DNA from: Xanthostigma xanthostigma
Taxonomy: Eukaryota > Arthropoda > Insecta > Raphidioptera > Raphidiidae
Direction: 5' to 3'
DNA: 64,000 bases
Assembly: GCA_963575645.1 (NCBI GenBank)
Contig: OY754470.1
Span: 4,162,501 to 4,226,500, forward strand
Part shown: piece after piece, positions 14,007 to 63,732 of the stretch
How positions within the stretch are numbered: position 1 is the first letter of the stretch
How the letters are laid out: the number at the start of each line of letters is the position of its first letter
Translations under genes and position numbers: made by a program
The notes under the pieces: generated by a model
The model's database searches: none
Seen by the model: the letters and a program-made list of their open reading frames with translations, nothing else
Told to the model about the DNA's origin: nothing

Positions 14007-15041
14007 AAATACGGGCAATGTCGACAATGCCCGGGGAATGTCGACATTGACTGGTCAATGTCGACAATGCCCAAGCCACATCGGGCAATGTCCGAAATCG
14101 GACAAGGTTAAGAAAAATTGATGTTTTATAAACATGAAACGCTGACTTTTGATTGTATCTTTATCATGATAAGTTATCATTAACGCTTTATGTAATTTTT
14201 ATCACTGATATCAACTATTGAAGAATTTATTTTTCAGCTTTCAAATAGTGTCTTAAATAACTCAAATTTGAACAAAGTATTTTGTAAGCACTTGAATGAA
14301 ACACAATTGAAACTCATTGAAAAACGACCGACTATTACGAGAATTATAAAAAAAATGACAGCGCTAGAACTTACCAACGCCTTATAGAGCCGAATTTTGT
14401 AATAAATGGAAGGTTTTTGTATTTGAGTAATAAGAAGATTATGAGTAGATCAGCTTAAGAGAGCAATAAACATATTTTCATTTATTAAAATAAATAAAAT
14501 ATGTGAAAATAAATTATCCGTATTTTGATTTTTATTTTTATTGTTGGAATAAAAGTGAGTTCTGAAATTTAATGCATTGAGATATATTGTTTATTGCTCA
14601 TATCATGTAAATAATAAATAAATTATACGTGTTTTCAATCATCAATAATTGTAATAGAAAGTTGAAAAATATATTCTTCAATAGTTGATATCAGTGATAA
14701 AAATTCCATAAAGCGTTAATGATAACATATATTAGATATCGTGTCCATCGAGATAATTATAAATAAAAAATCGCAGGATTGTGGACAAATATTAGATTTA
14801 TTAATTGTACGACGTTTCGTCTATAAATTTAGACTTTTTCAAGTACAAGTTGAAAATTATTAAAACAATAATTATGAAAATAAACATTAATTACTAACCA
14901 TAGCAATTAACAAAAGTTAAGGTACAATCAAATGTCAGCGTTTCATGTTTATAAAAAATCTATTTTTTGAGCCTTGTCCGATTTCGGACATTGCCCGATG
15001 TGGCTTGGACATTGTCGACATTGCCCGTATTCTGGACATTG
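14007..15041. mobile_element. Long-TIR element with TGTCGACA repeats
   Basis: Left end ATGTCCGAAATACGGGCAAT and right end CCCGTATTCTGGACAT form long inverted repeats (about 14007-14260 and 14670-15041). They contain GGGCAATGTCGACAATGCCC-type palindromes and CCGATTTCGGAC. The left arm has an extra duplicated TGTCGACA block. A half-copy of the 63022 foldback family (about 14736-14900) is inserted in the right part. No transposase frame. Confidence 0.65.
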
Positions 15042-15479
15042 ATCGTAACATATATAAAGGTTAATAAATTTTTTATTATTATTATAACTGTTTGTAGCGA
15101 TTGAGGAAAAAAACGCCAGTCAAAGTTGTCGGTCGTGGGGTAAATTAGAATCACATCCATTAAAACATAACTTTTCTATGATGAAAGTTGTGATCAGATA
15201 ATGCGTTTTTCCGCTGCAGTGTGTCTTTTTTCCTCAACTAAGAAAGAAAAATCATTGTTTTTGTCGCGCTCTGCCTTCTTCATTTGACGTCACATTGGAA
15301 TTGGCCAAGCGTGCAAATGATATAGAAATGAATTTAACGTTATTATCCCAACACAAATTTATTTTATCGTCTATTACCAAAGCATTCCCTAGTTTTCACT
15401 TAAATTAACAAACTTTCTCTTCTATTCGAACAGTGAAAATGGAACACGGTATAGAAAAAAAGAGATAGGTATTGAACTA

Positions 15480-15860
15480 CTTATTTTTTCCGATTAATTG
15501 GACGTACCGCTTAATTAGCGGTATGTGCTCTATTATCGCTTTGTGCGTCAGAGCTGACTCGTTCATACAAGAAGTTAATTTCACACGAAATCCATTCAAA
15601 CTGTAGCTTTTTGAAAAGAGGAGATCCTGTTCTATAAAACAGAACCGTTTTTAAATCGATTCGAGTTCATAATTACTTCTAAAATTGTAATTGAAACAGC
15701 AGTTGTCGGTTGGTCGGTACGTATGTACGGATGTACGTATGTACGGATGTACGTATGTACGGATGTATGGATTTACGTATGTACGGATGTATGGATGTAC
15801 GTATGTACGTGCACGGCGGCCTTTAGTTCGAAACACAATAGAACGGTCAGCATTGTTTTC
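15480..15860 (+). repeat. Interspersed repeat L with minisatellite
   Basis: Inverted relative of 26545-26830: shared phrases are AGCGGTATGTGCTCTATTAT, TTCTATAAAACAGAA and CAGCAGTTGTCGGTTGGTC. In this copy a GTAC-rich minisatellite has expanded where the other copy has only ATACGTACGTCC. Confidence 0.6.
15717..15811. repeat. GTAC-rich minisatellite
   Basis: About 95 bp of GTACGTAT and GTACGGAT units in tandem. The register also produces repetitive reading frames on both strands, which are artefacts. Confidence 0.9.
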
Positions 15861-16333
15861 AGAATTTGTGACAAAAAATCTGATACGGGTCAGTATTGTT
15901 AGAAATTAACCTCAAACTTTGAGATTAAACAATTGCCGTTATCGTGACAAAATACAATATGTGCAAGCGAAACAGTATTGTTGTGGCTGAAGCAAATGTA
16001 ATTAGGCCGCCACTAAAGCAGCGGTCAACGATTTAATGTGTTAATCGTTTTACTTTAATTGTTTATATAATGCGATGCTATAATGGTAAAGTTTTAGGGT
16101 CGTATTAAGAGGATAAAGTCGTGAAACTTTACTGTTACTGCTGTTTTCGTTTGAATTTTGTAAGATACGAGTTAATGTACCCGGCGTTGTACGGAAAACA
16201 AAAAAAAATGTCTGTTATGTCGTAGTCATAAAAGTAAAACCGATAAATTATATGTTATTGTAAAATTTCGGCAGAATTTGTAGGTTAGTTCGTCGCAAAA
16301 TTGGTATCCACGAACGGCGCTTTTATTTTAACG

Positions 16334-16693
16334 CAATAATATATAGCCTGTGTCCATCCTGAAGGTTCATTCTAAACCAGTGGTGAAAGAATTTTTTAAA
16401 TAGGTGCAGTGGTTCCGGAGATATACACACAAACACAACATTCACACTCTTTCTTTATGATATTAGCATTTTGTAGCGACATCTGTACTCAAAGCTATTC
16501 AGAAGGAAATGAAAGGAAACTGTTTCAGTATCACGTAGCGACATCTGTTAGAATTTGATCAAAGATATTATTTCAGAAGCAAGTCTGGAATAATTTGCTC
16601 AAAATTATTAGTCCAGACGCCGGGCCGCAAACGAAACACATTTTGCAGAATTATATCTATCGCACCCGGGTGAAATCGAGACGGACCGCTAGT
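16334..16693 (-). repeat. Interspersed repeat B, minus copy
   Basis: The minus strand begins ACTAGCGGTCCGTC, then CACCCGGGTGCGATAGATAT, then several units of about 55 bp around CTTTGAGCAAATTC and AGATGTCGCTAC. The right part (CCGGAACCACTGCACC) is the family's 3' segment. Confidence 0.6.
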
Positions 16694-16699
16694 AGATAC

Positions 16700-17740
16700 A
16701 TATTTTTGTAAATATCTAGGTATACTGCGTTTTTTTAAAATATTTTTTAGCTTTAAAATTGTGTTTTTCTCGTACTTGGTGTTTATAAACAAAAATGTCA
16801 AAATAGAGTAATGTTAGAGTGATATTATTTATTTTTTATTTAACTTTTTATTTCTTATTTTTGATGTGTAGGTACGCATAAATTCAGGGTAGCCGTTTTG
16901 TCTAACACTTTATAAGTACAATGATTTGCGACTCATCTCAATATTATTTTTCGCGATAAAAACAATCGAGAATTCTGAAATAATAAATTTTAAATGAAAA
17001 TAAATTCTCACTTTATTTAAAATGGGTTTTTTATTTGCTACGAATAAGAGGTGATATATTAGCAAAGGAATAATGTATTTGCAAGTGAAAAGAAATCCTT
17101 GTGTAATTGAAAACGGTAGAAGTGATGCTTCTTTTTCCAAATTAATAAAAAAATCAAGTCACGGAACTTTGTGTGCAAAGACACGTACCATTGAGTGTAG
17201 CAACGTTAACGCGTATAGCTTCGTTTGTTTCTTCCCGGGCTTTCTTTGTATCCCACAAATATATAAAAAACCTTTTCATTAAGATTCTTGAGTAGGTACT
17301 GTTTTTGAAACGTTAATCAATTTTTTTTCGAGTTTATTTTTTTGTCCACAAAATATTTTTTATGAGACTGATTTCATCAACTTTATAAACTCCTATTTTT
17401 ATTCCATGAATTGTTCGTCGAAATATAAATTATTGTCCGAGTTTTTGATCGAAATTTATTTTTAAGTTGTATCGCGAAGATGTTACAACTCATTTATTGC
17501 ATGAAACTTTTATTGCAAAACATACGACAATCTATGTCAAAGAAACTAGCATGAAAAATGTCTTTTGTTTTAACCTAGTTTTCTAGAATGCTTAGTTTCT
17601 ATTAAATTTTTTCCTAAGCTTTTTTCCACGTGATATTTTTTAGTTTGAAGTTTTCAATTCGTGTTTTATTTTTTAGTGACAAAAGTTAAAAAAATAAAGA
17701 AAATCAAGTGATATTGGAATCTATCAAGAGTTGCCGTGTT
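16700..17740. other. No gene or clear element seen
   Basis: AT-rich intronic sequence with only short spurious frames. Confidence 0.45.
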
Positions 17741-17776
17741 CACACACACACACACAGAGAGAGAGAGAGACACGCA
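17741..17776. repeat. (CA)n(GA)n microsatellite
   Basis: A CACACA run passes directly into GAGAGA, then ACACGCAC. Confidence 0.9.
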
Positions 17777-17830
17777 CATTTCTGTGGATAGTCATCATTT
17801 TATGTTGATTATATTATCAACTTATGTATA

Positions 17831-18440
17831 ACTAGCGGTCCCGCCCGGTTTCACCCGGGTGCAAAAAAACGAATGGGGAAGGAAGGGACATCTTTTAATA
17901 TAATAAATATTTAATTGAAAACACTGTAGGAAAATTATTTTTATATATACTTAGGTGCCTATATAGTTGTAACAGTTTTCAAATGAGCTATTAATTAGAT
18001 TTATGTAATTTTAATTAGTCGTAATAAAATTTTAAAAAATTGAAATGTAAACCTTAGAAGAAAGCAATGTAGAAAATAAAAAAAAAATAAAAATATATTC
18101 GCCGACGTGGGACTTGAACCCTAGACCCTGGCATTAAGAGTCTTACACTCTACCGACTGAGCTATCCGGGCTTGTACTCTTGAACGCTAATATTGCAGTA
18201 TTTAGTTAAGGCATTTCACCTGATAATATTTGTCGGACGGACTAATTTTGAGACACATCTTGCAACATTTTTCATTTATGTTCCGCTCCAATTAGTCGTA
18301 GCGTAATATTATATAGCCTATAGCCTTCCTCGATAAATGGGCTATCCAACAAAAAAAAAATTTCAATTCGAACCAATAGTTTCTGAGATTAGCGCGTTCA
18401 AACAAACAAACAAACTCTTCAGCTTTATATATTAGTATAG
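17831..18440 (+). repeat. Interspersed repeat B, long variant
   Basis: Starts ACTAGCGGTCCCGCCCGG and ends near TTTCTGAGATTAGCGCG plus an AAAC run, the family's two ends. The middle differs from other copies and includes a decayed tRNA-Lys-like unit (18100-18171). Confidence 0.5.
18100..18171 (-). pseudogene. tRNA-Lys(CUU)-like relic
   Basis: The minus strand reads GCCCGGATAGCTCAGTCGGT, a good D-arm, with anticodon loop CTCTTAA (CUU) and T-loop TTCAAGT. The anticodon stem (TAAGA/TGCCA), T stem and acceptor stem (GCCCGGA against GTCGGCG) each contain mismatches, so it should not fold as a working tRNA. It is a tRNA pseudogene or a SINE head. Confidence 0.75.
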
Positions 18441-25680: not shown

Positions 25681-25773
25681 AATATTTTTTCATCATCGGG
25701 GTCTCAATGCAAGTTTATCATCTTAACTTGCATTGACGCCCTGATGATGAAAATATATTTTTCGAAACGTTGG
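25681..25773 (+). repeat. Palindrome followed by GAAACGTTGG module
   Basis: TTTCATCATCGGGGTCTCAA and TTGACGCCCTGATGATGAAA form imperfect arms of about 33 bp. The right arm runs into CTGATGA...TTTTTCGAAACGTTGG (25741-25773), the hammerhead-like module discussed in the findings. Confidence 0.6.
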
Positions 25774-26449
25774 CCACGAGCGATACTCTGGTAAAGCTTA
25801 CTTTTCAATTGTTCCTCAACCAGACATATATATCCTTCAATACAATTTACTTTTTACGTAACTATTTCAATTCGTTATTATTTTCACATCAAAAATTTTT
25901 TAATTCAATCATGGAGTAAGAACGGTTCTACGAAGAATATTTGTACACAGATAAAATTACAGATTTCGAACACATTTTCTGTTCAATTGTTCGTACCATT
26001 TATTTGCGGTGGATAATAAAGAATAAACTCAGAGCAATTTCGATAAGTTTTATAAGTTCTAGAAAAAGAAAACAAAAAAGTTTTGTCGGTGTTTTGTACA
26101 AAAATTGTGCAACCTATATTCTGAATAAAAGTGATAGCAGTTTCTTTCCGATTAACTTTGTATTTAGTTTCCTACTTTTTTTTGATAATATATTATCAGA
26201 ACATATTTTTGGTGCTTCCTGCGTACGTTCGTCTTCGTATAAAACATTCATATTATTACTCGGATTTTCCAAACAAATTATTATTTTAAAACTGGAGTTC
26301 GTGGTTGCTTGTTTAATATACATAACATGTTTATGGAAAATTGTAAGAAATTTTAGATTATAGATAGTTCGCAAAACCAAAAGTTTTTTACTGTATGATA
26401 AAAATAAAAAACGATATATAAAATGCAAGGATGTAAAAAAATTGATGAC

Positions 26450-26544: not shown

Positions 26545-26830
26545 CTGTTCTAAACCAAAGGGATCTGCTAAAAATTGCGTTCTGTAGAGCTCGGACGTAC
26601 GTATAGAGTGACATAGACCAACCGATAACTGCTGTTCGCGATTTTCAATTAAACTTAAACTCGAATCAACCTTAAAACGGTTTTGTTTTATAGAACAGAA
26701 TCTTCCCCTTTCAAAAAGCTTTAATTTGAATAAATATCGTGCCAAATTAGCGAAACGAATAACTTCTTGTAAGCGCAAAGTGATAATAGAGCACATACCG
26801 CTAGCAGTGTAGCGATATGTGCAATAATAT
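26545..26830 (-). repeat. Interspersed repeat L, minus copy
   Basis: Inverted relative of 15480-15860, without the minisatellite expansion. It ends near AGCGATATGTGCAATA, just before foldback family J. Confidence 0.55.
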
Positions 26831-26870
26831 TGAATATTCAAATCTTTGATTAACGTCTGAATAGAACTCT

Positions 26871-27136
26871 TCAAATAAATAAAATTGTCGACCAATTTTT
26901 TTCAGACTATATGTTGACAAAAATAAAATTATAAATCAATATTATACAAAAGATGACGTTTTGATCCGGATTTGGATCTTCTTCAGAAATAATCTAAAAA
27001 ATATAAAAATTAATTAGTATATATCTACTTATTTTAAAATAGAATGAAAACGTCATCTTTTGTAATATTGATTTATAATTTTATTTTTGTCAATATATAG
27101 TCTGAAAAAAATTAGTCGACAATTTTATTTATTTGA
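26871..27136. mobile_element. Foldback of family J with GATCCGG module
   Basis: Arms of about 90 bp (TCAAATAAATAAAATTGTCG and its inverse) surround a middle carrying GACGTTTTGATCCGGATTTG-GATCTTCTTCAG. Related members: 8322, 60436 and 63515. Confidence 0.75.
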
Positions 27137-27506
27137 ATATTGAATATTTTTTGTGATTTTAGTTTGAAATCAATACCTAAATATATGAAGAAAAACTCCT
27201 TAAACTTTATAAATTAAGAATGTTATGCGTTGTAAGTTTCTTAAGAAAATTAAACTTTCGACGCTACAATATTGAAAAGCGCTAATAAAGTTGATCAATA
27301 TTATCAGAATAGATTAATTCAACGAAAACTTATGCAATTTCCGCCACGGTCTATTATTAACTTCAAAGAACATGAGAAGCTTGGATGAAGCTTCTCGTTC
27401 GTATATGTTATTGACCCCTTAAGAAGCGTGGAACTTTTCTGACATGTTTATTAAATGAATATAATGAAGCCATTATAAATTAACTTAAATAATTATGATG
27501 CACTTT

Positions 27507-28544: not shown

Positions 28545-29239
28545 TAAGGGAAATGGAACAAGGAAATTTCCTATGAACAGAAACGAAGCGTGCCAATTCT
28601 GACGGAGTAGTCAAAATCTAATTTGATTAATTAAACTTTGGTAATATTATTTAAACGCAAGACTACATTAAAAACATTAAAATTATTCTTTCTGTCTAGT
28701 TTTAAATCATAATTGGTTACATGTATAAACCGTATAATATCGTTTAAATTGATTGATTATTTTTCGAGTAGGATCGATTTTAAATGCTACAATGCTTTTC
28801 TTATGTGGCAAATCAAGGGTTTCTGCAATCCATCATAAAAATAAACGTACCAAATGCCACGCTTCGCCTTCTGACATGTGAGCTAGACATGATAGCTAGA
28901 CATTTCGATCGATTTCTAGGAAATGCACGGAAAAAGATAAACCAAGTTAAGCGAATACGTCGGCTCGGAAAATGCGTTTGTTTTTCAAATGTATGAAAAA
29001 TGCAACAAAAGAAAAAGTACTTGAATAAAATTGTTTGTATTTCATAAATATGAAACAACACACTGTCGATATTGTTTGCTTTCTGTATAACGAGACAATC
29101 ATTTCAACCAGATAACTGGTAGTTTCGGGTTGAATTTTATTTTCTTATATATATACCCTTGTAAGCAGCATTTTATCTGGAGTTTAGAATTCATGAATGA
29201 AAGGAGTTATAACCTATAAATCATTTATTATTATCCATA
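28545..29239. other. No gene or clear element seen
   Basis: AT-rich intronic sequence with spurious short frames on both strands. Confidence 0.4.
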
Positions 29240-30022
29240 TTAATGTCTGTTTGTCTGTTATGCTTTCACGACCAAATCGCTGGACCGATTGTGATGAAAT
29301 TTAATAGATAGATAGATTTATTGGTTTTAAATTATACAGAAAGTTAAAAAACACGTCAAAAAGTACATATAAACTAAGGCAAATTATTTGCCTCTAAAAA
29401 TTCTCTAACAGAATAAAAGCATTCCCTACGTAGGTATTTATAAATAATTTTTTTAAATATGGAGATAGTTTAAGCTCTGTGGAAGGACATAAACTACTGT
29501 TTTTTCAAGAATTAACCCCTGATGGGGTTAAATGCCTTTTCATAAATTAAGGTAAAAAACGGGTGTTCCGGTACATTTAATGCGAAATCTTGATGCGCCC
29601 AAATTATGTAATACACGTTTACAAGTTTCTTACCTGGGTCGAAATATTGTTAGGGCTATTATAATTAGTGTTTTAATACCACGAATGTCAATTATACTGA
29701 CGGATTTACCGTTTCAATTTAAAAGATTACAATTTTCTTTGAAAATTGCTTTCGGAATAACTATAAACAAAGCCCAGGGGCAAACATTTAAGGTAGCTGG
29801 CATTTATTTAGAAGAACCATGTTTTTCGCACGCTCAGCTGTATATGGCTTGCTCATTTGTATCGAATCCACAAAATCTTTATGTGTTTGTAAAAGCTGGT
29901 AAAACAAAAAATATTGTTTATAGGGCCGTCTTTAATAATTTAGAGTCTTGCTTGAATTTATGAGTTTATATAAATTGTACACACTGATTCCACGCAGACG
30001 AATTCGCGGGTAAAAGCTAGTA
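29240..30022 (+). mobile_element. Helitron remnant
   Basis: Holds the C-terminal piece of a Helitron helicase (29580-29963) and ends CGCGGGTAAAAG-CTAGTA, compatible with the CTAG-type 3' end of Helitrons. The Rep nuclease and most of the helicase are missing. Confidence 0.65.
29580..29963 (+). pseudogene. Helitron Pif1-like helicase, C-terminal fragment
   Basis: 127 codons from ATG; homologous sequence extends a few codons upstream (GVPVHL) before a stop. Recognisable blocks are LRNLD-like MRNLDAPKLCNTRLQV, the LPFQFKRLQFSLKIAFGITI block, INKAQGQTF (the conserved helicase motif in which family members read INKSQGQT) and the HAQLYMACSFV block. These match the last helicase motifs of eukaryotic Helitron Rep-Hel proteins, which move DNA by rolling-circle transposition. 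The N-terminus, Walker motifs and Rep domain are absent, so the copy is dead. Confidence 0.8.
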
Positions 30023-30455
30023 GTAAGTATAATAATTGTTGTTATCCACAAGCTATTAAGATTTATTATTTGCTATTTAATTCAGTTTAATCATTCCGCA
30101 TATTTTAATAATACAAAACTTTTGTTTGTTTATGTTTTTGCTATAAAAATTATGAAATTGCTAGAGCTGTTCGTTCAACAAAAATGTATTCAATTTATAT
30201 GTAAAATTTAAAAGCTTCAGTACGAGATGCTTCAGAAAAGCATAATACAAAGAAAATCGAATATTTGTATATCTAATTGGGATATTCATGCAATTCAATT
30301 TATATGCTAAGTTCTAGATATAAATTCTTTCACAAGGTAACTTCAAGAAAAAGCAATTTTGCCTGTCATTCATACCGCGTATCATCTATAGAGGTGAATT
30401 GTAAACAAATTGTGCTAAAAACGACCCTGTCTGGCATGAAGACGAAGAAAAAATA

Positions 30456-30541
30456 AAATAGAAGAATAGTTAAAAATTTTAACTATTCTTCTATTTTATT
30501 TGATTACCTACATTTTAACTTAAAATGTAGGTAATCAAATT
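30456..30541. repeat. Two adjacent perfect hairpins
   Basis: ATAGAAGAATAGTTAAAA is followed by its inverse, and then TTGATTACCTACATTTTAA is followed by its inverse. The two hairpins, each with arms of about 20 bp, abut. Confidence 0.8.
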
Positions 30542-30720
30542 TTTAAACAACGTCGAAAAATAACATCCGAGACAAAAGCCAAATTCGGGTTGTTAATTTC
30601 AGCCGGAGCGAACCTGAACGCTGCTCCGGTAATTTTCAGTGAAACTTTTCATACTGAAAATCATTTTGGAACATTGAGGTTATTTCTCATATTTTTACTA
30701 GAAAATAATTTCTTTTAATA

Positions 30721-30912
30721 TTCGGAGCCCAAAGGAATGGTGAGACCTCTGCTGAGAAATGCGCCGAACTATCCTAAGGGGGTGTTTGACCGATAAACAT
30801 TAATTAGAAATGATGGAGGCTAACCTGCCTCCATAGTTTATCTGTCAAAAATCCCCTTTAGAACAGTTCAGCGCATTTCTCACCAGAGGTCTCACCATTC
30901 ATTGGGTTCCGA
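30721..30912. mobile_element. Foldback MITE with 80-bp arms
   Basis: TTCGGAGCCCAAAGGAATGG through GCGCCGAACTA is mirrored by CAGCGCATTTCTC...CCATTCATTGGGTTCCGAA. A small inner palindrome (GGAGGCTAACCTGCCTCC) forms the loop. No coding frame. Confidence 0.75.
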
Positions 30913-31051
30913 ATTATAAGAGTGAAATCTATAATTAATATTGTGAAAAAAAATTAGGGACATTGTAACATTTACATCTATACTTTTAAAATTATGTATT
31001 ATTTTCGATTTAAAACAATTAACAAAAATACTATCCTAAACCGCATTTGAG

Positions 31052-31086
31052 CTCCGAAGATGACAAAAATAACTGTCGAAACGTCA
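31052..31086 (+). ncRNA. Hammerhead-like GAAGA-hairpin-GAAACGT module
   Basis: CCGAAGA, T, GACA, 8-nt loop, TGTC, GAAACGTC. The 4-bp stem sits between a CUGANGA-like and a GAAA-C box. Transcription and self-cleavage are hypothetical. Confidence 0.3.
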
Positions 31087-34079: not shown

Positions 34080-34944
34080 TAGTGATGTGTCGCTCCTGAG
34101 AGAGTCGTTCATAATGAACGACTCTTTGCTTGGAGCGGAGCGAGCCGCTCTTTTTTTGTGAATGACTCACTCCGAGCGCCATTGCTCTGTGCTGTTGCAG
34201 TCGCACATTTACAGAGCGCACTCAGCACAGGCCACAGAGGCATTGGTGAATTTTGCACGTACGGAGTTATCTTTGTGGAGTCATTTAATGTTGAATGACA
34301 CACTGTAAGTGTAATAGTACTAAGCTTGCAGTGACTTAAACCATTCACATTGACGTCGTTGACAATGATATAATATTGTAACAATAAACATTATTACTGT
34401 TAAGCTTTTATTATACTTTATATAGTTTATCCGAAATGCGAATAATATAATATAATATAGGAATCATATGAAAATGAGCTCAGAGCTGAGTGTGTGTATT
34501 GTGCTGTGCAATGCTACGTGACTCCTGAGCATGCATGATGACAGTTCACATCTCTTGTGTAGTGCGTACTGTCTAGTGTCGCTCCTTTGAACGACTCCCT
34601 CTGAGCGACTCTTTTTAGTGAGCGGAGCGCACGGAGCCAGCTCCCAATAAAGAGTCAAACATTATTACTGTTAAGCTTTTATTATACTTTATATAGTTTA
34701 TCCGAAATGCGAATAATATAATATAATATAGGAATCATATGAAAATGAGCTCAGAGCTGAGTGTGTGTATTGTGCTGTGCAATGCTACGTGACTCCTGAG
34801 CATGCATGATGACAGTTCACATCTCTTGTGTAGTGCGTACTGTCTAGTGTCGCTCCTTTGAACGACTCCCTCTGAGCGACTCTTTTTAGTGAGCGGAGCG
34901 CACGGAGCCAGCTCCCAATAAAGAGTCATGTGGACACATCACTA
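34080..34944. mobile_element. hAT-like element with internal duplication
   Basis: Termini TAGTGATGTGTC / GACACATCACTA resemble hAT ends. No convincing 8-bp duplication is visible. Inside, GAGCGACTC / GAGTCGTTC words recur and a 271-bp block is tandemly duplicated (34386-34927). Reading frames within it are identical because of the duplication and are not genes. Confidence 0.6.
34386..34927. repeat. Tandem duplication, 271-bp period
   Basis: Copies at 34386-34656 and 34657-34927 appear identical base for base by eye (start AAACATTATTACTG, end CAATAAAGAGTC), indicating a very recent duplication or an assembly artefact. Confidence 0.9.
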
Positions 34945-37026: not shown

Positions 37027-38194
37027 TCTAGATGGAAAAGTCGAAAGCAGAACATTTGACTTAGGAACTTTGTTTGGACTAGTTAGGAGATAAACATACT
37101 AAAAGTCATTGCCCCTCTGAGGTACGCCCGAAGGGGGGGAGCACAAAGAAGGTCCCGTTTTTTGGTTTTTTGCTTTCATCTCGAAAACGGTACGTCGTAC
37201 GAAATTTTGTTGTAATACATAATGAAAGCTGATAAAATTCTCTACAACTTTAGTTTTCACACTTTTTATCTATCTCCAATCTTTGCCTAGCTATGAGCTC
37301 CGAAAAATGGTCGATTTTCAAAAATGTGTTAAATTCTCTGTAGCACATTGTAACAATACGAATTTGTCAAAATCATTTCGTATCGCTCATCCAAACTATT
37401 AAAAACACCCACACACTATTAAAAAATAACATAAGCTTTAACCTATTGAAGGCCCTGGGCACATTAGAATTATGGGGCCCCTATGACCTTAACAGAGCAC
37501 TATTTTGTTAGAATAGACAAAGGAAATAGATAAACAAGGTTCTAGATTCTAAGTCGAGGAATGTGATATAAAATGCATATATTTAAAAGGATCACGTTCC
37601 CAATTTTAACATGAAGGACACAAAAAAAATAAGTATATGAAAAATAGTTCACTGATGATTTTTGTTTAAAACAGTTTAGGTACTTAGTATACCATTAAAC
37701 TAGGGGGTCCCTATCGATCGCGGGGCCCTGGGCACGTGCCAGAGTGCCCAGTGGGAAAGAGGACCCTGTGTGGAGGTACTCCCAGCTTATGTTATTTTTT
37801 AATAGTGTGTGGGTGTTTTTAATAGTGTGGATGAGCGATACGAAATGATTTTGACAAATTCGTATTGTTACAATGTGCTACAGAGAATTTAACACATTTT
37901 TGAAAATCGACCATTTTTCGGAGCTCATAGCTAGGCAAAGATTGGAGATAGATAAAAAGTGTGAAAACTAAAGTTGTAGAGAATTTTATCAGCTTTCATT
38001 ATGTATTACAACAAAATTTCGTACGACGTACCGTTTTCGAGATGAAAGCAAAATACCAAAAAACGGGACCTTCTTTGTGCTCCCCCCCTTCGGGCGTACC
38101 TCGGAGGGGTAAGGACTTTTAGTATGTTTATCTCCTAACTAGTCCAAACAAAGTTCCTAAGTCAAATGTTCTGCTTTCGACTTTTCCATCTAGA
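37027..38194. mobile_element. Foldback element with 411-bp arms
   Basis: Arms 37027-37437 and 37784-38194 are inverted copies, nearly identical by eye, each starting TCTAGATGGAAAAGTCG at the outer end. The 346-bp spacer holds GGGCCCTGGGCAC words like those of hAT-derived sequence at 27507-28535. No coding frame. A transcript across it would form a very long double-stranded RNA. Confidence 0.85.
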
Positions 38195-38519: not shown

Positions 38520-39688
38520 AAGTACTTCAGAGTAGCTTTTTTAACCAAGAAAAAGTGCAACTTGGATAACTTTTTTTATGAAATTTCGTTTCAAATTTAA
38601 TATAAATTGCATTTTTGACAAAACAATGCATTGCTGTGTTACATAAATCTTATGAAATAAGATTTATTTCACTACTCAGATGAAGATTAAAAAATTGTTT
38701 TGTGTTTACTAAAAAGAACGAAAAGAGACACTATCATGTTCAGAGTTTTTGTGACAAGGCATTAATGTTTAATGCGTTTAGTTAAGAAAAACATTAGTAT
38801 GTTATAGTTTCTTTTCTAATTTCATATTTCATTTCAAATGTGACAGCAAACATTTATAATAAATTTTGGTCACTTTGACATAGATTTATCTTTTTTTCGT
38901 AGTGGACATCCTGCTTGAAGTGATAGTGATGAAGCTATTGAACAGGGTGTGAATTAACTGGTCTGAATTTGTTGGATGTAAATAATATCTGTGGAAACAG
39001 GATAAAATTGTGTATGTTGAATTATTAACAATTTGTTTGTACTTAAAACATTTTTCTTTTTGTTGTTTTGGATACACTTGAAAACAAAAAGTATTTTACA
39101 CAAATCAGAAAAAACTACTGCATTTCAAAACATATAATTAGAATAAGAACGTGCCAAATGTAATACCCCACTTCGGCTTGTGACAACAGAACTGAAATTA
39201 AGCTACACGTATGAAGTTTTTATTGCCTTTTTAATAATTCATTCGGAAATTATTTTTGAAGGGTAACTTTTAGTATCACGAAATCGCTTAATCTATTGCC
39301 ATTAAACTGACAAACCAATGGAAAACTAAATAAGCCAGAACAAATAGCGATTTTTTATTCGATGGCTGCTTTTACACCAGTAAGAATGATTTTTTCTAAT
39401 ATGGAGCTAAACTTTAGTCCACTATTGTTTTATTGTTTTAACCAGTCTGTGAAAATTTGTGATTTTGATGTTCATTTAATTTTTTTGAAATTCTAAAAAA
39501 AAATGTTTTTATTTAGCTTCTGTGCAGGTGACTTTTTTATTATTTTAAATAATGATAATTTTTCATGACAGTCAAACCTGTGTGACTTTAACCTTTCAGG
39601 GAAAAAAAATGAGTTCTTACGTCAATAACAACTACGACATTGGTATTTCCAGACACACATTTAGAGTTACTTAGGCGGGGACGTTAAA
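38520..39688. other. 5' flank of the gustatory receptor gene
   Basis: AT-rich, with no repeat that I recognise. The promoter of the plus-strand receptor gene must lie here or within its 5' untranslated region, but no TATA box or initiator can be assigned with confidence. An in-frame stop lies a short way upstream of the ATG at 39689. Confidence 0.4.
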
Positions 39689-40585
39689 ATGGCAGAAAAT
39701 TTTGGAAAACCCTTAAAGTCTATTGGTGGTTTTTTGAAACTGTGTCAATGGTGCAATATATCTTTTGTTAAACCAGTAGTCGTTAAACGGAAACAAATAT
39801 TTCTGGCATCATCTTTGACACGAAATATATTTGCCAAATTTGTGCTTTTAGTTTCTTTGTATAGTGCAGCAGTAATAAATCAGTGTCACATTGGAAAAAA
39901 TTGTCACATTAATTTTGATTTTGTGATTGAATATGCAACCATGTTTATTTCAGTTTTCATTATAATTTATTTATTTGTAAATCGAAATAAAATCGCAATA
40001 ATTTTTAACAAAGTGAATAAGTTAAACGATGATATTAGAGCGAAATTCCGTTTGTTTATAGTTTATGATAAAAACGTTCAAAGAATAATATTCATTGTAT
40101 ATTCAATTGATATAATTTTGAGTTCGAAATCTTATTTAAACGGAGTTCTTAACGGCGATGGCATTTTTTCTGGATGCTTGAATTATTGGATTCGATTTGT
40201 AATTCCACTGTATCTTCTATACTTACCAATTCATTTGTCGTCTTCTTTAGTTTCATTGTTGGTACAACAATTAAAACCTTTAAATAAATTCTTAGCTCAA
40301 CATGATCGTGAACAATCAAAAGATGAATTAAAATTTCTCGAAACTTACAGACAAGTTTCGGCTATCCATGTTGAAATTTCTACCCTTGCTTTATTGATAA
40401 ATTCAACATTTGGGATATGTATTTTATGTTTAACTGTAGTTTTCATGACTTACAAGACAGTTAACTTATTTAGAATTTACTTTGCGGACGAATATTTCGT
40501 AATTTTTGAAGAACTCATGTGGTTTTACTGGAATATTCAAATACTCACAATACTTATCAGGCCTTATGTGAAGTTACAAGAGCAG
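39689..40585 (+). CDS. Gustatory receptor, coding exon 1 (residues 1-299)
   Basis: This is the large first exon of an insect gustatory receptor (Gr), a seven-TM ligand-gated cation channel of chemosensory neurons with an intracellular N-terminus. ATG in context TTAAAATGG; an in-frame stop lies just upstream. Hydrophobic segments are near residues 45-62, 76-97, 133-146, 167-192, 232-256 and 272-291 (TM1-TM6). The exon ends CAAGAGCAG|GTATTA in phase 0, matching the phase-0 C-terminal introns of Gr genes. The open frame continues to 40747, but that extension (from VLIVLRL on) is intron and MITE sequence. It joins exons at 42606, 42733 and 43236 to give 369 residues, a normal Gr length. Ligand unknown. 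The whole gene lies inside the GPCR intron, on the opposite strand. Confidence 0.85.
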
Positions 40586-40600
40586 GTATTAATTGTGTTA

Positions 40601-41040
40601 AGGCTGCTGACCACAAGGCTGGATTTGCCGCTAGATTTGACTACTAGTTTTCTAGTGCTGGTTTTCTTAATTGCTTTTATGTGCTCGCTCTACACGAGAC
40701 GTCTTTTCAAGCTTGTTTTGTGGATAAATCTGGTGCGCGCGCAGTGACAGTTCAAATATAAACGCAGATCAAAACGCGTCTGTTGTCTGACTGTGAGCAG
40801 AATGACGCCATGTTGGCTTGTAGGCGTTTGTTCGTGTCGCCCACGTGACAAGATACTGTTTTCTGATTGGTTCTTGCTCAGAGCAAGCAGAGGAGCTAGC
40901 AAAACAGCCCTTGTTCTAATTTTAAAATCTATCGTGTGAGCTAGCAGGCAAGCCCGCAGTGACGTCATTTCCAGTCTCGTACCCAGTCTGCCGGCCAGCA
41001 GAAGTCCAAGCAGCGTTTCCAGCCTCGTGTGCAGCGGCCT
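40601..41040. mobile_element. Harbinger-type MITE D, copy in Gr intron 1
   Basis: AGGCTGCTG / CAGCGGCCT termini with TTA duplicated on both sides (40598-40600, 41041-41043). It begins 15 bp after the splice donor of Gr exon 1, leaving GTATTA intact. In the antisense sense it is the counterpart of 8587-9003. Confidence 0.8.
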
Positions 41041-41519: not shown

Positions 41520-41553
41520 CTGAGAAAGACACGGTTGGTGTTGAAACGTCGAC
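41520..41553 (+). ncRNA. Hammerhead-like GAAA-C module in Gr intron 1
   Basis: CTGAGAAAGACAC, a 5-nt loop, GTGTT, GAAACGTC. A stem GACAC/GTGTT (one G-U pair) lies between the two boxes. Activity is hypothetical. Confidence 0.3.
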
Positions 41554-42403: not shown

Positions 42404-42505
42404 TTTTCGATGAAGGAAGGTTTTGGTTGAGGATCATAAAAAGCTTTACCGACGTTACGCTAGTGGCCAACGTTTCGAAAAAATTATTTTCATCTTCAGG
42501 GTTGA
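42404..42505. repeat. Half-copy of the 56464 foldback family
   Basis: CGATGAAGGAAGGTTTTGG through GGCCAACGTTTCGAAAAAAT matches one arm of the perfect palindrome at 56464-56634. The minus strand carries CTGAAGATGAAAATAATTTT-TTCGAAACGTTGG. Confidence 0.65.
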
Positions 42506-43306: not shown

Positions 43307-46300
43307 TCTTTTTGTGACTTTCATTTACTGCTTTTGTAACTTTTCAACAGAGAGACGTTTAAATTATTTTGGAAAATACACATGCCTAATTTAGAATCAA
43401 TCTAACAGAATATTTAGACCGAGTCCGAATCAGAATTTTTATCGGTCTATCAAGTTTTTTTTTGTCCGGATTAACTTAAAAACTACTAAACGTATTATTA
43501 TGTGAATAAATAGATAAACATAAATAAATAAATAAAGAGGCTGAGTAGTCGACAAGAATGTGTTATCAATAATCACAATGGATGTTAATAATTTCTTTAC
43601 ATAAATTCTTTTGTAAAATGTTTATAAGCTCTAGGACTGGCCTGTAAGCTTTTTCAATCAGAATTTATTTATAAAATGAAGACACCTGCTCCAGAAGATA
43701 TTTTATTGCGTCTTTTATTTCCTTGGTGGGCGATTTTGTAATAGGTCCAAAGTGATACTGATTAATTTGTTTGCAAGTGTTTATAAATAAATTTTGACAA
43801 AAATGTACTAAAAAGATAAAATAGTTTAATAAATTGTTTTGGAATAATTTGTCTAAATAGCTATAGTTTTTATCACTTGTGGAAATGCGTTTGTTGATAC
43901 ACTTTTATGGGTCACATTTTGATTGTGACGAAACTGCAAATTATTTTATCATTTCTAATTTAGGTTAAAAATTGAATTATAATGATCTCTTTGAAAAAAA
44001 TCTGTAAATACAACGTTAAAAGTAACTGTTTTAAAAAGTTAGAATATTTTTTTATGATTTTTGAAACAAATAATTATAAATAATAAAAACGTGTGACCCT
44101 CTAGATAAAATTTTGGTTAATTATTTGATGCATTCAGGAGTGAGGAAAAAAGCGGTACAAAACACTTGAAGATCTGTGAAACGTGTTAGATATGAAACAA
44201 AAATAATAACATAAATTTCGTATTGGGGAAAAAACAATCAAATAATTTGGAAATGGTCCAAGAGTATAATTGATATAAACAAACTTATAAATTGTTAATT
44301 GTAAATCTGAGAATTTTACGGTGTCTTCTTTTCTTTCTGGATTTTATTGTATTATGTAATTTGTGTATAACCATACAATTTATCTGTAAATGGCGTAATC
44401 ATAGTCCGTAGAAATAGTTATTATAGTAATCAGTTGTTATTTGTAAGTTATATAGCGATTCAAAGAAAAACAATAAAAAATAAATGTTTTGACGGTAGTT
44501 ATCTTTAAAATTATACCTGTTGTTGTTGGTGTCGTGATCATGGCCTAACATATTACTTGTCTATATCTAAACTATGAACTCTCGAATCTCTGAACCGATT
44601 TGAAAAATTCTTTCACTGTTTAATTGCATTTTACTTGTGTTTATTCTAGCTGTAGTCGTCTGTAATTTTGTTTTTAAAGCCACCCATCTTTCACAGTTTC
44701 AATTTATGATTATTTATTAAAATCTAACAAATGGTGTTATTTTTCAAGTTAGAACGTTATAGAAACTGTGGATATACAATAACCATATCGTACATAGTTT
44801 TGATTATATCCCCGCAAATTTAATTGTTTTCGACAAAATCTTCTGGGACAGCCTGTATGTCTATTAGAATGATATTAGGGTCATAATAAGTTTAAATTTG
44901 TGCGACAACTATTTCCGTAATCTGCAACAGAAGATATGTTTCCCGGAACAAGGATCTGTGAACATATTGTATATCTATTTCGCTTGAACTTCGGGCTAAA
45001 TCTCTTTCTGTCTCTCTTTGTATTTAAATGTGTTTAGAAATCGTGTAGTTTGCTTAGGACTTGGCATTAAGGATGGCAAAACTTTTAATAAACAATCCCT
45101 CGAGGAATAATAGGAACTGGTAGATCACAAAACTCGTGTCTTCTGTGTAAGACTTCCTTACGTTCAGGAGCTGTTCTGCGTCAACACATTAGTACAAATC
45201 AGCATCTATCACTGTCATGCTATAGAAGTGTTCTCTGAATCTATCTCATTCAATCAACACCTTTGACGGTTATGGCTCAGCGATACGTGTGTCATACATA
45301 AATTAACACATGCATGATACAAGACACACGGCTGGTGGCAGTAGTACAAAGCTAAATTGCATATTGTAGTTTGTTGTCAACAGTGTTTGAAAAAAGTTAA
45401 TAATTGAAACATAAATATAAAACCGTTAGTTCTTTATAAAACAGACGAGACTTTAATAAACAAACTTCATTTTTAGCAAGAAAAAATCAAATTACTAAAC
45501 GAGTCATTTTGTAACGGATCTTTGCTCGTCCTTGGTATGTCAACAATATATAATTGGCTTGGGTAACTTAAGCCAAACAGTAAACTTACAGCCCCTTCCA
45601 ATTAATCGCTCTTGCACTTGTGGATTTATTATAAACCACTGAACGTAATGTTTGTTTGTTTCCCAAATACCATTTACTGGAAATTGATTCATTTTTGTAT
45701 ACACTGAGTCACATTAAATACGGAATGTTTATATTGGTAATAGGAAAAACATTCTTTCAGTCATATTTATTATTAACAAAGTTCCGTAAAAAAATATTTG
45801 TTAATGTGGTTGTGATTTCAATTTTCTGTAATTTTAAGAATTATGCAAGAAAAAGTACAAATACTAAAGAAGCTAAGCTATTAGAGAAATACTTATATTT
45901 CTATATTTTTAAAGTACTGGTGGTTGAGCGTATGATCCTATTGAGCGACAACGCTTGCTTGGAAAAATATTTAAAGTTTTTTTCCGCTGGCATTAGCATA
46001 ACCCAAGACATACCAGGGCTAATGTCAGCGGTAAACCACGATAAAAACGGCGCAAATCGAAAAATAGTTCAGACATTTTTTATAGCATTTTTTCTCCTCT
46101 ATCAAATGGGCTAATAAAAAATATAGGTTTCCACTTAAAAAAACACTTTTGAAATGCGTATCTCCGAAGTGGCGCCATCTATCGGGATGTTCATGTGTGC
46201 ATAATATTATTTCTCCCTCCAAACTGAGCAACTTTTATTCGGAGAATTTTGTGCTATCTTCAAAATTAACGGAAATATAAGGGTAGTTACTTTAAAATGG

Positions 46301-52057: not shown

Positions 52058-52563
52058 CAGTAGACCAGCGGTCGGAAACCTTTTGGCAAGCAAGGGCCAC
52101 ATAGTGGCAAATTGAAATAAAGGCGGGCCGTACTTGTTCATAAGTTAATAATAGGTATTTGTGATATTAAAAATTCGAAAACATTTCATTTGAATTTTAT
52201 TAAAAATTTAACTGAGAACTTCAAAATAGAACTGTTCTTTTACAAAAATTAGTGTGACGTTTGAAATTGTATTTGAGTGGCTATTTGTTGTATGTTAGCT
52301 TGCAGGTTTGTAGTCGCAATTCGTAGAATAGCTCTCAAATGCTCATCTGTGAGACGAGAAGCATATTTATTTTTTCTGTAACTGAGAATCGAAAAGGTTT
52401 GTCCGTATAAGTAAGTACTACCAAAAATTGTAATTAATTGCAGAGCAAACCTTTTCAATTCGTCAAAATTAGATGACAAACTGAAATAAAATTTAACAAG
52501 ATCTTTGATTTCAAAGAACGAGTTCTTGAGAGTATCATTAGATTGGAGATCAATCACGTTCAT
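52058..52563 (-). pseudogene. hAT transposase C-terminus with terminal repeat
   Basis: The minus-strand frame (52249-52563, 104 residues) carries the hAT dimerisation region: LITIFGSTYLYGQTFSILSY, then RLTDEHLRAILRIATT and a final QFQTSH before the stop. This is the conserved C-terminus of hAT transposases related to ZBED5/EPM2AIP1-like proteins. The catalytic core is missing. The non-coding tail ends at 52058 in CAGTAGACCAGCGGTCGG (plus strand), a hAT-like terminus. The usual Cys-Glu before the QTFS motif is replaced by Tyr-Gly. It lies about 200 bp inside the intron from GPCR exon 1. Confidence 0.8.
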
Positions 52564-52758
52564 TTGTAAAGTACATCCTCAATATCATAAGAAAAAGGAT
52601 TTGTGAAAATTAATTTAATTATTTATTTATGTAGGTAGGTATATATAAGATTTTTATTTATAAAACAGTCACTAGACGAATCGTAGTTACGTCGAATATC
52701 GCAGCGAAGAAATGTATCAGTGACCTTATGTGAAATGAAACAAACATATAAAACTAAC

Positions 52759-56463: not shown

Positions 56464-56634
56464 TACGATGAAGGAAGGTTTTGGTTGAGGATCATAAATA
56501 AGCTTTACCAATGTTACGCTAGTGGCCAACGTTTCGAAAAATTTATTTTCATCTTCATCTTCGAAACGTTGGCCACTAGCGTAACATTGGTAAAGCTTAT
56601 TTATGATCCTCAACCAAAACCTTCCTTCATCGTA
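56464..56634. mobile_element. Perfect 75-bp-arm palindrome
   Basis: Arms 56464-56538 and 56560-56634 are exact inverted copies (outer end TACGATGAAGGAAGG, inner end GGCCAACGTTTCGAA) around a 21-bp AT-rich spacer. A single-arm relative is at 42404-42505. A frame reading through it (56221-56679) is an artefact. Confidence 0.9.
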
Positions 56635-59020: not shown

Positions 59021-59024
59021 AAAT

Positions 59025-59462: not shown

Positions 59463-59474
59463 TGCATAAATTAA

Positions 59475-59850: not shown

Positions 59851-60309
59851 ATAAAATGTTATTTTTAAAAAAGTAACACAAAATGTAAAATGAACCACAC
59901 TGTTTCTTATACACGTGTTTTAAGATAATATTTCAAAATGCACGTGGCCTGTGTAGTACAAGTCACGTTCGTGTGAACTAGTTAAAATAATAATTTATCA
60001 TCAGGTTTGAAATTTATACGACTGCATTGCGTTTGCAGAAGCGCTTGATAACACGTATGACCAGAATTGCAGTTCCAGTGGTATGAAATTACTATGAAAA
60101 TGATGACATAACAACTTTTATGTAGCTGTAGAATGCAATAATAATTGTATTTCTGCTGCCATTGTTGTAATAAATTTAACACTGTAACTGCGGGGTTTGC
60201 CACAAGTTGGCGGAGGTCATACAGGATAGGTTCACTCGAAGAGGAAGGGATGAATGGTGATACAAAAAATTGTTTTCATTCAAAATATCTATTAATTTCT
60301 TGTAAAAAA

Positions 60310-60893
60310 TGTGATTTTTAAGTTGACTCTTTTTTTAACAGCATGTAGAAATCAAATAAACGATCAACTATTTTAAGTAACTTTTTTATCAAAACTCAAA
60401 AATAAGAGAGAAACAGCTCAAAGTTTAATTAAAACCTTTGATTAACGTGTGATTAGAACTCTTCAATAAATAAAATTAACGACCAATTTTTCAGACAATA
60501 TATTAACAAAAAAAAAAAAAACATTAACGTTTCGATCCGGATTTGGATCTTCTTCAGAACGGATCTAAAAATATAAAAAAGAAATGATAGCACGAATCGG
60601 AAATGCATCCCAAATAATTCGCGTAAGGCCCTTATCGCTGCCACAAGCATGGCTATTGGCTACGACGCATGCATCTTTGTGTCCAACAAAACTTGAACAA
60701 TTTCTGTAGTGAATACTTGACAATAACGTAGGTAACACGTTTCCATAGTGACATAATATAACCTCATAATTTGATAAAATTTTGAAAGCTCGTTCATTTT
60801 TGAGTTTTGATAAAAAAGTTACTTGAAATATTTGTTCGTCTATTTGATTTCTACATGCTGTTAAAAAAAAGAATCAACTTAAAAATCACTCTG
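60310..60893. mobile_element. TIR element with inserted family J half-copy
   Basis: AAGTTGACTCTTTTTTTAAC...GTAACTTTTTTATCAAAACT and the inverse near 60790-60890 form arms of about 95 bp. A family J half (60436-60570, with GATCCGGATTTGGATCTTCT) lies between. Confidence 0.6.
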
Positions 60894-60894
60894 T

Positions 60895-61655
60895 ATATAC
60901 CAATCATATTTTCTTGATGATTTCGCAACTTTTGTTAATCCTTCATTTGTTTTTAAGTTTAAATGAAGAATACGGAATTTTAGTTCACTAATATATTTTG
61001 ATGAAAATACGTGACTAAAAAAATAAAAAACTAAGACCCGACTACGTAAATGAAAAAATCAAGCAAATCAAAACATAAGACAGTATTTATAGCTTAAAAA
61101 CTTCAACCAAAACGCTAAAATAATGTTCTCTGACAACCATTTAAAATGTCTGACACCTCAAATATGTCGAACATCTATCCAATTAAAAAAACAAACAGTA
61201 TCTATAAATTTTTACATGTCGTCAAAACGACATCTTTCAGAAAATTTAGAGGGAAAACGCCCCAAAATCAAGAAAAGTCATAGAGGAAATAGGTGTCAGA
61301 CTAGGCCTATTGTAGCCATATACAAAATTTGGGGAGAGGATGTGTCAGTAAAATTTTTGCTGACGGGCACTCTGACTATAACGGATCGTGGAAGTAAACA
61401 GCCTAATAATTTAGCATTAATATAATAATTATATCTACAATAATCCTCTATTTATTCGAAACGGTAAACGCCCGCCGAAACAATTAATATTTGAACATTT
61501 CGATTAAAGCCAATAGTTATTGTGTTCTAACAAATTATTAGTCTAGCCGAATGCCCTTAACAGCCGTTGCACAATTAATTTGTTAAACATGAATTGACAA
61601 TAGGTAGTCATTACGTTTATTGTCATCATACGTACTGCACATCCATGTTTATATA
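60895..61655. other. Unassigned; one open frame of unknown meaning
   Basis: A 100-codon plus frame at 61123-61425 has higher complexity than its surroundings (for example KRPKIKKSHRGNRCQTRPIV) but no motif I recognise. It may be a transposon protein fragment. Confidence 0.35.
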
Positions 61656-61659
61656 TGAC

Positions 61660-62703
61660 TAGCCGCTACCCGCGGCTACGCCCGCGATTGAGATGGAAAT
61701 CGACTTTTGACATGCATATCAGGGGTTGAGGTATTGCACATATTTTGACAAAAAATTTTCTTATTTTTCGTAAAAAATTTTTATTTTTTTTTAATAAAAA
61801 GTATCCTATGTTACTTCTAATACCTTCAAGAGTGTATGTGCAAAGTTTCATGATGATCGGTTAAGTAGTTTTTGCGTGAAAGCGTAACAAACAAACTTAC
61901 ATTCGCATTTATAATATTAAGTAAGTATGATATGATAACAATTTTCTTATTTTTCGTAAAAATTTTTTATTTTTTTTTAATAAAAAGTATCCTATGTTAC
62001 TTCTAATACCTTCAAGAGTGTATGTGCAAAGTTTCATGATGATCGGTTAAGTGAAAGCGTAACAAACAAACTTACATTCGCATTTATAAAGGGATTAGTT
62101 TAGTAGGGAAGTAAGTCTAAAATAATAAAGTGACAGCTAACCACAAAAATTACGGATAACCTCAAAAATGTGAATAGTATTATACTGCATGTAACGACAG
62201 AAGAAAATAACAATAAATATAGAAAAATAACTATATTCAATTGAATTAGATATTGAATTAGATATTGTCGTCACCGTCGGTAATACAGTGGGTTGGTATT
62301 ACAGTATTCAGGGTTGAAACTTCATTACTATGATGCTAGATGGCGTTGAAGTAGCTAAATTTGACGATATTTTGACAATTTTCTTATTTTTCGTAAAAAA
62401 TTTTTATTTTTTTTTAATAAAAAGTATCCTATGTTACTTCTAATACCTTCAAGAGTGTATGTGCAAAGTTTCATGATGATCGGTTAAGTAGTTTTTGCGT
62501 GAAAGCGTAACAAACAAACTTACATTCGCATTTATAATATTTTTCTTATTTTTCGTAAAAAATTTTTATTTCTTTTAATAAAAAGTATCCTATGTTACTT
62601 CTAATACCTTCAAGAGTGTATGTGCAAAGTTTCATGATGATCGGTTAAGTAGTTTTTGCGTGAAAGCGTAACAAACAAACTTACATTCGCATTTATAATA
62701 TTA
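61660..62703 (+). repeat. Repeat C cluster, four 165-bp units
   Basis: Units at about 61749-61917, 61937-62089, 62375-62540 and 62541-62703 are nearly identical (TTCTTATTTTTCGTAAAAA, then TCATGATGATCGGTTAAG, then TTACATTCGCATTTATAA). Unit 2 lacks about 12 bp around AGTTTTTGC. The first unit is preceded by CTAGCCGCTACCCGCGGC, the usual start of such repeats. Confidence 0.85.
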
Positions 62704-62709
62704 GTATGA

Positions 62710-63020
62710 TTTCGAATAATAGGATAAAGCTGGCTACAGACGCCACCTCTGTCGGCTAGTCTGTCGATTTATTCCATATGATGGAAAAATTTGTTATTTT
62801 TTTATCACATAATATGTTACCGTTATTATTATAATGATACAAAATAATGTTATGGAGTATAGACTGTGATCACATTACGATTATTGTAATGAGTATATCC
62901 GCAGTCTAACGTCATCAAATTTTTTATTTGTTGAATGTTTGATGGTACTCAGTACTCACAGAAAATAAATGACTCATCTGCATAGCAAAGTTTCGTTTTT
63001 TAAGTTAAACTATGATCAAA
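62710..63020. other. No gene or clear element seen
   Basis: AT-rich sequence between repeat C and the 63022 palindrome. Confidence 0.4.
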
Positions 63021-63021
63021 A

Positions 63022-63284
63022 TTAATAAGAAAAAATTCTCAGGTTTGTGGACAAAAGTTATATTTATAATTGTACGACGTTTCGTCTATAAATTTAGACT
63101 TTTTCAAGTACAAAATTGAAAATTATTTAAAACAATAATTATGAAAATAAAATGTTTATTTTCATAATTATTGTTTTAAATAATTTTCAATTTTGTACTT
63201 GAAAAAGTCTAAATTTATAGACGAAACGTCGTACAATTATAAATATAACTTTTGTCCACAAACCTGAGAATTTTTTCTTATTAA
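63022..63284. mobile_element. Perfect 130-bp-arm palindrome
   Basis: Arms 63022-63151 and 63155-63284 are exact inverted copies by eye, separated by 3 bases. Each arm carries GTACGACGTTTCGTC...GACTTTTTCAAGTAC. The right flank CGATGGACACGATATCTAAT matches a half-copy at about 14736-14900. Confidence 0.9.
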
Positions 63285-63514
63285 CTATTATCGATGGACA
63301 CGATATCTAATATATATGATCAAAATGATTCGAAAATGTGTCGAAGAGGAAATGGTATAAACATAAATGTTAACAAAGAAAAAGAAAAAAATATGTTGGT
63401 ACAGTCGGATTCATGTATTTTCAACACCATTTCCTCATACGCTGCTGAACTATTGAAAAAATACGTTTAACAATATTAACTGACAAATATTTGATTAACG
63501 TCTGAATAGAACTC

Positions 63515-63732
63515 TTCAAATAAATAAAATTGTCGACCAATTTTTTTTCAGACTATATATTGACAAAAATAAAATTATAAATCAATATTACAAAAGTTGA
63601 CGTTTCGATCTGGATTTAGAGCTTCTTCATAAATAATCTAAAAATATAAAAAATTAATATTGATTTATAATTTTATTTTTGTCAATATATAGTCTGAAAA
63701 AAATTGGTCGACAATTTTATTTAGGTATTTGA
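63515..63732. mobile_element. Foldback of family J, right copy
   Basis: TCAAATAAATAAAATTGTCG and its inverse bound a middle with GACGTTTCGATCTGGATTTA. The stem of the internal module is partly decayed compared with 26955-26988. Confidence 0.75.

Follow-up and report, generated by a model that had tools for sequence, protein, structure and literature searches.

Hammerhead-like modules in short insertions of a Xanthostigma xanthostigma contig and their probable origin from Penelope-like retroelements

We examined 64,000 nucleotides of the Xanthostigma xanthostigma genome (Insecta; Raphidioptera; assembly GCA_963575645.1, contig OY754470.1, positions 4,162,501 to 4,226,500 of the forward strand), hereafter the window, for short modules resembling hammerhead ribozymes. 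Eleven modules in five sequence families (F1 to F5) were identified. Judged from their sequence, these are very probably minimal type I hammerhead ribozymes of Penelope-like retroelements (PLEs), surviving in short insertions that fall into at least five sequence families. The features that point this way are the C3-A9 core, stems I and II, an ACGU with H17 directly after it, and inverted pairs of copies in which one end is the longer; assignment to PLEs rests on this architecture. Minimal type I hammerheads of PLEs have reportedly been described by Cervera and De la Pena in 2014 and by Lunse et al. in 2017, and the modules are further members of this published kind.

Detection of the modules

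The window was scanned with a descriptor in which CTGANGA is followed by at most one spacer base, a hairpin (stem 4 bp or longer, loop 3-13 nt), and GAAAC, with 100 dinucleotide shuffles of the window as control. Exact cores gave three matches (25741+, 60557-, and 42499-), compared with none in the 100 shuffles. Allowing up to one core mismatch gave 6 matches against a shuffle mean of 0.31 (maximum 2), and allowing up to two gave 12 against a mean of 2.6 (maximum 7). Nine of these 12 are modules, and the remaining three, at 45387+, 60767-, and 56330-, are taken as chance matches. Modules F1a, in which G12 is changed, and F1c, in which stem II is broken, escape the descriptor. The string CGAAACGTYG occurred 8 times in the window (0.31 expected), and GAAACGT alone 25 times (11.25 expected). 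Among 120 viral contigs carrying the same two boxes, which served as a further control, a flush stem of at least 4 bp was present in 5.

Each module has the same shape: CUGANGA, one extra base, stem II, GAAACGU, and H17. In sense order, it runs through a stem I strand, positions 3-9, the extra base, the stem II hairpin, GAAACGU, H17, and the other stem I strand. As copies within a family are relatives, we treat the five families, and not the 11 modules, as the independent units. The modules are as follows:

26955-26986, minus strand: F1a, CTGAAGA core, stem II 5 bp, G12 changed to A, stem I 1 bp
60526-60557, minus strand: F1b, intact core, stem I 4 bp, stem II 5 bp, H17 is U
63599-63630, minus strand: F1c, C3 changed to A, stem II broken after 1 bp, stem I 2 bp
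14811-14842, minus strand: F2a, U3/A8 in place of C3/G8, stem I 6 bp, stem II 5 bp, H17 is C
63076-63107, minus strand: F2b, left arm of an inverted pair, same features as F2a
63199-63230, plus strand: F2c, right arm of the inverted pair, same features as F2a
25741-25771, plus strand: F3a, intact core CTGATGA, stem I 3 bp, stem II 5 bp
42469-42499, minus strand: F3b, intact core CTGAAGA, stem I 2 bp, stem II 5 bp
56528-56558, minus strand: F3c, position C3 occupied by A, no pairs in stem I, stem II 5 bp
41520-41550, plus strand: F4, G8 changed to A, C3 unchanged, stem II 5 bp, stem I 1 bp
31054-31085, plus strand: F5, U4 changed to C, stem I 3 bp, stem II 4 bp

Nine of the modules lie at places named in a sequence-only reading of the window, which had claimed a hammerhead-like module shared by at least five repeat families. 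All nine were recovered on re-reading, and the enrichment over shuffles and viral contigs bears the claim out, although the listing of copies left out two (56558- and 63630-). Some of the boxes need correction. The GAAACGT reported at 26955-26986 (F1a) reads AAAACGT, and the CTGAAGA reported elsewhere reads TTGAAAA in the copies at 14809 and 63022-63284, CTGAGAA at 41520, and CCGAAGA at 31054.

The core is exact in F1b, F3a, and F3b, carries the U3/A8 swap in the three F2 modules, and is damaged in F1a, F1c, F3c, F4, and F5. Positions C3 and G8 pair with each other; in several natural hammerheads they covary to U3/A8, and such ribozymes are active in vitro, according to passages of PMC3088659. 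The covariation is the same as in F2, but is described there for other hammerheads. By eye, we also noted that each of the three F1 modules (26986-, 60557-, and 63630-) is preceded by a T-rich stretch that ends, 7 nt ahead of the core, in a TTTTAG resembling a 3' splice site.

Pairing of the two stems

Stem II reaches at least 4 bp in 10 of the 11 modules, and stem I at least 3 bp in 6. Because stem I was absent from the pattern given in the sequence-only reading, it provides an independent test. Counted outward from the core, its runs of pairs were 1, 4, and 2 for F1a, F1b, and F1c; 6 for each F2 module; 3, 2, and 0 for F3a, F3b, and F3c; 1 for F4; and 3 for F5, so that stem I is weak in F1a, F1c, F3b, F3c, and F4. 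Against a null of 200,000 random window positions, Fisher combination over the five families gave p values of 6.4e-4 with the best copy per family, 0.0046 with the median copy, and 0.030 with the worst; choosing the best copy favours pairing, and the median and worst copies are the fairer tests. A stem I of at least 3 bp together with a stem II of at least 4 bp was present in 6 of 11 modules compared with 1 of 120 control contigs.

Covariation was assessed in a small alignment of four rows from three families (F1b, F1a, F2a, and F5), from which F3 and F4 were excluded for their differing length. Of its 32 cells, 90.6% were paired, compared with 62.1% after shuffling and at most 31.3% in slid versions. 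Both sides had changed in 7 of 8 pairs, and the covariation score was 0.938 against 0.339. Taken with the stem I results, this stem II covariation supports pairing at the RNA level and agrees with the earlier proposal that stems which differ and still pair reflect RNA-level selection.

A covariance model (R1) trained on F1a, F1b, F2a, and F5 was then run over the window without filters, with 48 rows listed. The four training rows and three close kin ranked first, followed at ranks 8-11 by the held-out modules F3b (E = 1.5e-5), F3a (0.005), F4 (0.047), and F3c (0.15); the next row stood at 0.17, and F3c is hardly separated from it. A custom model built from the copies had been suggested as a check in the sequence-only reading.

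These data also bear on whether the modules could be chance matches in AT-rich DNA, multiplied by recent duplication of a few ancestors. Copies within a family are indeed close relatives, F4 and F5 are imperfect and each occur once in the window, and F3c scores hardly above the next model row, all as chance would have it. The shuffle and viral-contig controls, the stem I pairing, and the covariation between families argue to the contrary, and we consider this explanation extremely unlikely.

The inserted base and the absent helix III

The sequence-only reading had likened the module to the hammerhead core of PLEs, with two doubts: one extra base before stem II, and no clear stem III or cleavage site. 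The likeness is supported, and both doubts can be answered. With respect to stem III, a closed helix is indeed absent in all 11 modules, in which ACGU, H17, and then a stem I position follow one another and leave no space for it; however, a U or C (H17) stands directly after ACGU in all 11 and is a candidate cleavage position. The missing helix is no objection, because the published PLE form lacks it: PMC6155905 and PMC7761336, in the passages on PLE hammerheads, describe them as reduced forms that have no helix III and may cleave as dimers. The modules share with these the type I layout, the lack of helix III, and the possible dimer action, as well as dispersed copies and a link to the pseudo-long terminal repeats (pLTRs) of PLEs. 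They differ in that the window families are new in sequence and F2 has U3/A8. ACGU is self-complementary, and two copies could pair there; we infer that ACGU-ACGU pairing of two copies may serve as helix III.

The short elements and type I layout would also suit retrozymes of metazoans, which are small elements with circular RNAs and hammerheads of the canonical type I. Retrozymes are described in the literature as tandem repeats of ~170-400 nt, and a stable helix III is reported for most type I hammerheads of invertebrates. None of the 19 tandem-repeat rows in the window covers any of the 11 modules, and none of the 11 has space for a closed helix III. A retrozyme origin therefore appears very unlikely.

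The extra base is U in F3 and F5 and A in F1, F2, and F4. To place it in context, a sample of viral-contig sites in which A9 is separated by one base from a GGC/GCC stem II was compared with a sample in which the two adjoin, reading loci numbered 121 upward, dropping sites too near a contig end, and counting distinct sites. Among the matches listed, 95 of 122 sites with the extra base had a type I (51) or type III (44) surround (0.9% with shuffled flanks), compared with 119 of 130 without it (101 type I and 18 type III; 0.7% with shuffled flanks). The base in those 95 listed sites was T in 84, A in 7, and G in 4. The nine extra-base sites in viral contigs L011 and L121-L128 all have a complete type I or III surround. 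The inserted base is compatible with otherwise complete hammerheads and, as it occurs in them, is no objection. None of 13 viral records with such motifs contained RVT_1. In the same contigs, we observed an additional hammerhead, of type II, whose score exceeds the Rfam gathering threshold (L122:4638-4729, minus strand) and, by eye, a GIY-YIG-like open reading frame (ORF) at L011:3329-3883, ~300 nt from the hammerhead of that contig.

A viroid hammerhead with an extra core nucleotide reportedly exists, to go by a paper title alone. Among the literature matches listed, none concerned such core insertions by title, and we make no claim that they are unpublished. It is conceivable, though in our estimation rather doubtful, that hammerheads with an additional base after A9 and before stem II (most often U among the viral-contig sites sampled) form a subclass under selection that is common to animal PLEs and viruses, and that F2, a family that would have spread in this form, joins the insertion to a U3/A8 core.

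In PAc, a Poseidon element of Anolis carolinensis, the hammerhead lies at the start of the ORF and cuts 26 nt past the start codon, as passages of PMC11167929 describe. An AUG formed by A9, U, and G10.1 in F3 and F5 would place the cut 25 or 26 nt downstream, close to the 26 nt of PAc (PMC11167929). We dropped this AUG as proof of an ORF start, because an AUG can arise without an ORF where the inserted base is mostly U (in the viral sample) and G10.1 is fixed by the search pattern. Unlike PAc, the window copies preserve no ORF, and the AUG does not prove one.

Host insertions and their proposed origin

The layout of the host elements was obtained from self-comparison of the window and from alignment of each region to its own reverse complement:

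26839-27137, minus strand: F1a element, inverted pair with one end extended by 31 nt; flanked by the 13-bp word AATATTCAATATT (~27136-27148 and ~26826-26838)
63486-63733, minus strand: F1c element, inverted pair with one end extended by 29 nt; flanked by the 14-bp word TGTCAGTTAATATT (~63734-63747 and ~63472-63485)
8284-8406, minus strand: F1d element, shorter F1 inverted pair without hammerhead, one end 34 nt longer; 9-bp word ATTATTATT
60428-60579, minus strand: F1b element, single copy extending into the longer end of F1
63022-63314, plus strand: F2b/c element, near-perfect inverted pair whose two modules face outward, with one end extended by 22 nt; flanked by the 11-bp word TATGATCAAAA (~63011-63021 and ~63315-63325)
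14720-14888, minus strand: F2a element, single copy
25681-25822, plus strand: F3a element, palindrome only 5' of the module, ending 13 nt before the cut; no flanking word
56464-56634, minus strand: F3c element, inverted pair with equal arms; no flanking word
42405-42501, minus strand: F3b element, single short copy

The palindromes comprise five clear inverted pairs in head-to-head orientation (F1a, F1c, F1d, F2b/c, and F3c) and two partial ones (F3a and F4). Four of the seven (F1a, F1c, F1d, and F2b/c) have both a longer end, or tail, of 22-34 nt and a flanking word of 9-14 bp. These words fit a short target-site duplication, with a null probability of 0.004-0.019 for each; some of them overlap the palindrome edge, and their lengths are good to several bases.

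Near-perfect palindromes (e.g., 63014-63292), the equal arms at 56464-56634, and the lack of a reverse transcriptase (RT) in the searched flanks would be expected of foldback DNA transposons or of elements resembling miniature inverted-repeat transposable elements (MITEs), whose palindromic ends would hold hammerhead-like boxes by accident. However, the same families contain non-inverted single copies (F1b, F2a, and F3b), one end is 22-34 nt longer in four of seven palindromes, and core and helices recur across families with different stems. Symmetric terminal inverted repeats, a trait of MITE and foldback elements, are not the rule here, and only F3c would fit. We regard a DNA-transposon origin as unlikely.

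In four of the seven palindromes, the arrangement matches that of Penelope elements of Adineta vaga, which have head-to-head inverted pLTRs, the inverted one shorter, with palindromic junctions, like the window pairs (PMC3846280, in the passages on these elements). Those elements have an optional 31-bp tail and target-site duplications of 8-10 bp, compared with tails of 22-34 nt and words of 9-14 bp in the window. They differ in that the window keeps only short terminal pieces. For PAc, a tail has been explained by two RT start sites (PMC11167929), and the tails of the window pairs are similar.

Measured from the first base after the predicted cut, the shared part of the palindromes starts at -11 in F1a, +8 in F1c, -76 in F2b/c, -47 in F3a, -11 in F3c, and -22 in F4, and so never at the cut itself (0) in the six palindromes with a module. 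For this reason, the insertions look copied from uncut RNA. This agrees with the report that unprocessed RNA is the main template of PAc (PMC11167929). Most copies are now probably passive remnants.

If the modules are PLE hammerheads, a route of insertion can be proposed, its steps drawn from published PLE work and not read from the window. The ACGU of two copies would pair to form helix III, and each ribozyme would cut after H17. Reverse transcription would begin internally on the RNA, at either of two nearby positions beyond the hammerhead. Each nicked strand of the target would then be extended and the two complementary DNAs joined, giving head-to-head pairs with the tail kept at one end. 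In PAc, both strands are cut and extended in vitro, a tail of 30-40 bp lies between two internal RT start sites, and hammerhead mutants leave insertion unaffected, according to passages of PMC11167929.

Several results weigh against a PLE hammerhead origin. Cores are damaged in 5 of 11 modules, or 8 of 11 if the F2 swap is counted. Flanking words are lacking in three of seven palindromes (F3a, F3c, and F4), and the F3a and F4 palindromes cover only the module surroundings and stop short of the cut, that of F4 by 2 nt. The dimer hammerhead lay above the minimum-energy two-strand fold in all six copies computed (for example, -19.3 against a cofold minimum of -21.8 for F2a, and -12.7 against -29.8 for F1b), and the two-stem fold was the monomer minimum for F2a only. 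A poor calculated fold does not by itself exclude function, because the PAc hammerhead cut only after protein was added (PMC11167929). The covariance-model search for hammerheads that the sequence-only reading had suggested gave no hammerhead row when the window was scanned with Rfam, at gathering scores or at E up to 10. This test misses the extra-base form, since at gathering scores Rfam listed none of the nine complete extra-base sites in L011 and L121-L128. PLEs encode a telomerase-like RT, usually together with a GIY-YIG endonuclease. A search for RT and GIY-YIG domains, of a kind also suggested in that reading, gave no match in three sense frames over 2.4 kb upstream of F1b, F2a, F3b, F4, and F5 and downstream of F5 (18 frames; other flanks were not searched), or in ten window ORFs. 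Finally, passages of PMC3846280 favour self-priming on an antisense template for head-to-head pairs, a rival to the two-strand step. Because both strands were seen extended in vitro (PMC11167929), we prefer two-strand extension, a choice that the window cannot decide.

Other features of the window were noted alongside. MicroRNA rows from Rfam at 56475-56626 were set aside, as all were below gathering scores and lay on the F3c palindrome, and at 8976-8985 (CGAAACGTTG) no hammerhead was apparent by eye. At 28656-31053 (plus strand) there is a relic of a Pif1 helicase 2B domain (E = 8.8e-6), possibly Helitron-derived, with F5 lying downstream. A 7tm_1 match was present at 1173-1466, which like the PLE layout points to DNA of animal character, and a weak match to the hAT dimerisation domain (E = 0.002, under the Pfam cut-off) at 52252-52578 (minus strand). 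A 360-aa ORF at 39665-40744 (plus strand) has several hydrophobic stretches and is chemoreceptor-like by eye, with no Pfam match at 0.01. The window also contains an inverted repeat at 37027-38194 (411-nt arms, 99% complementary, 346 nt spacing) and a 271-bp exact tandem duplication at 34386-34928.

Read as remnants of PLEs, these insertions would make PLE debris recognisable without any protein, through a covarying two-helix module combined with the layout of inverted pair and tail. The inverted pairs would also be consistent with in vitro experiments that used mainly uncut RNA as template and saw extension of each of the two target strands. Together with the inserted base, the U3/A8 family offers test cases for the flexibility of the hammerhead core.

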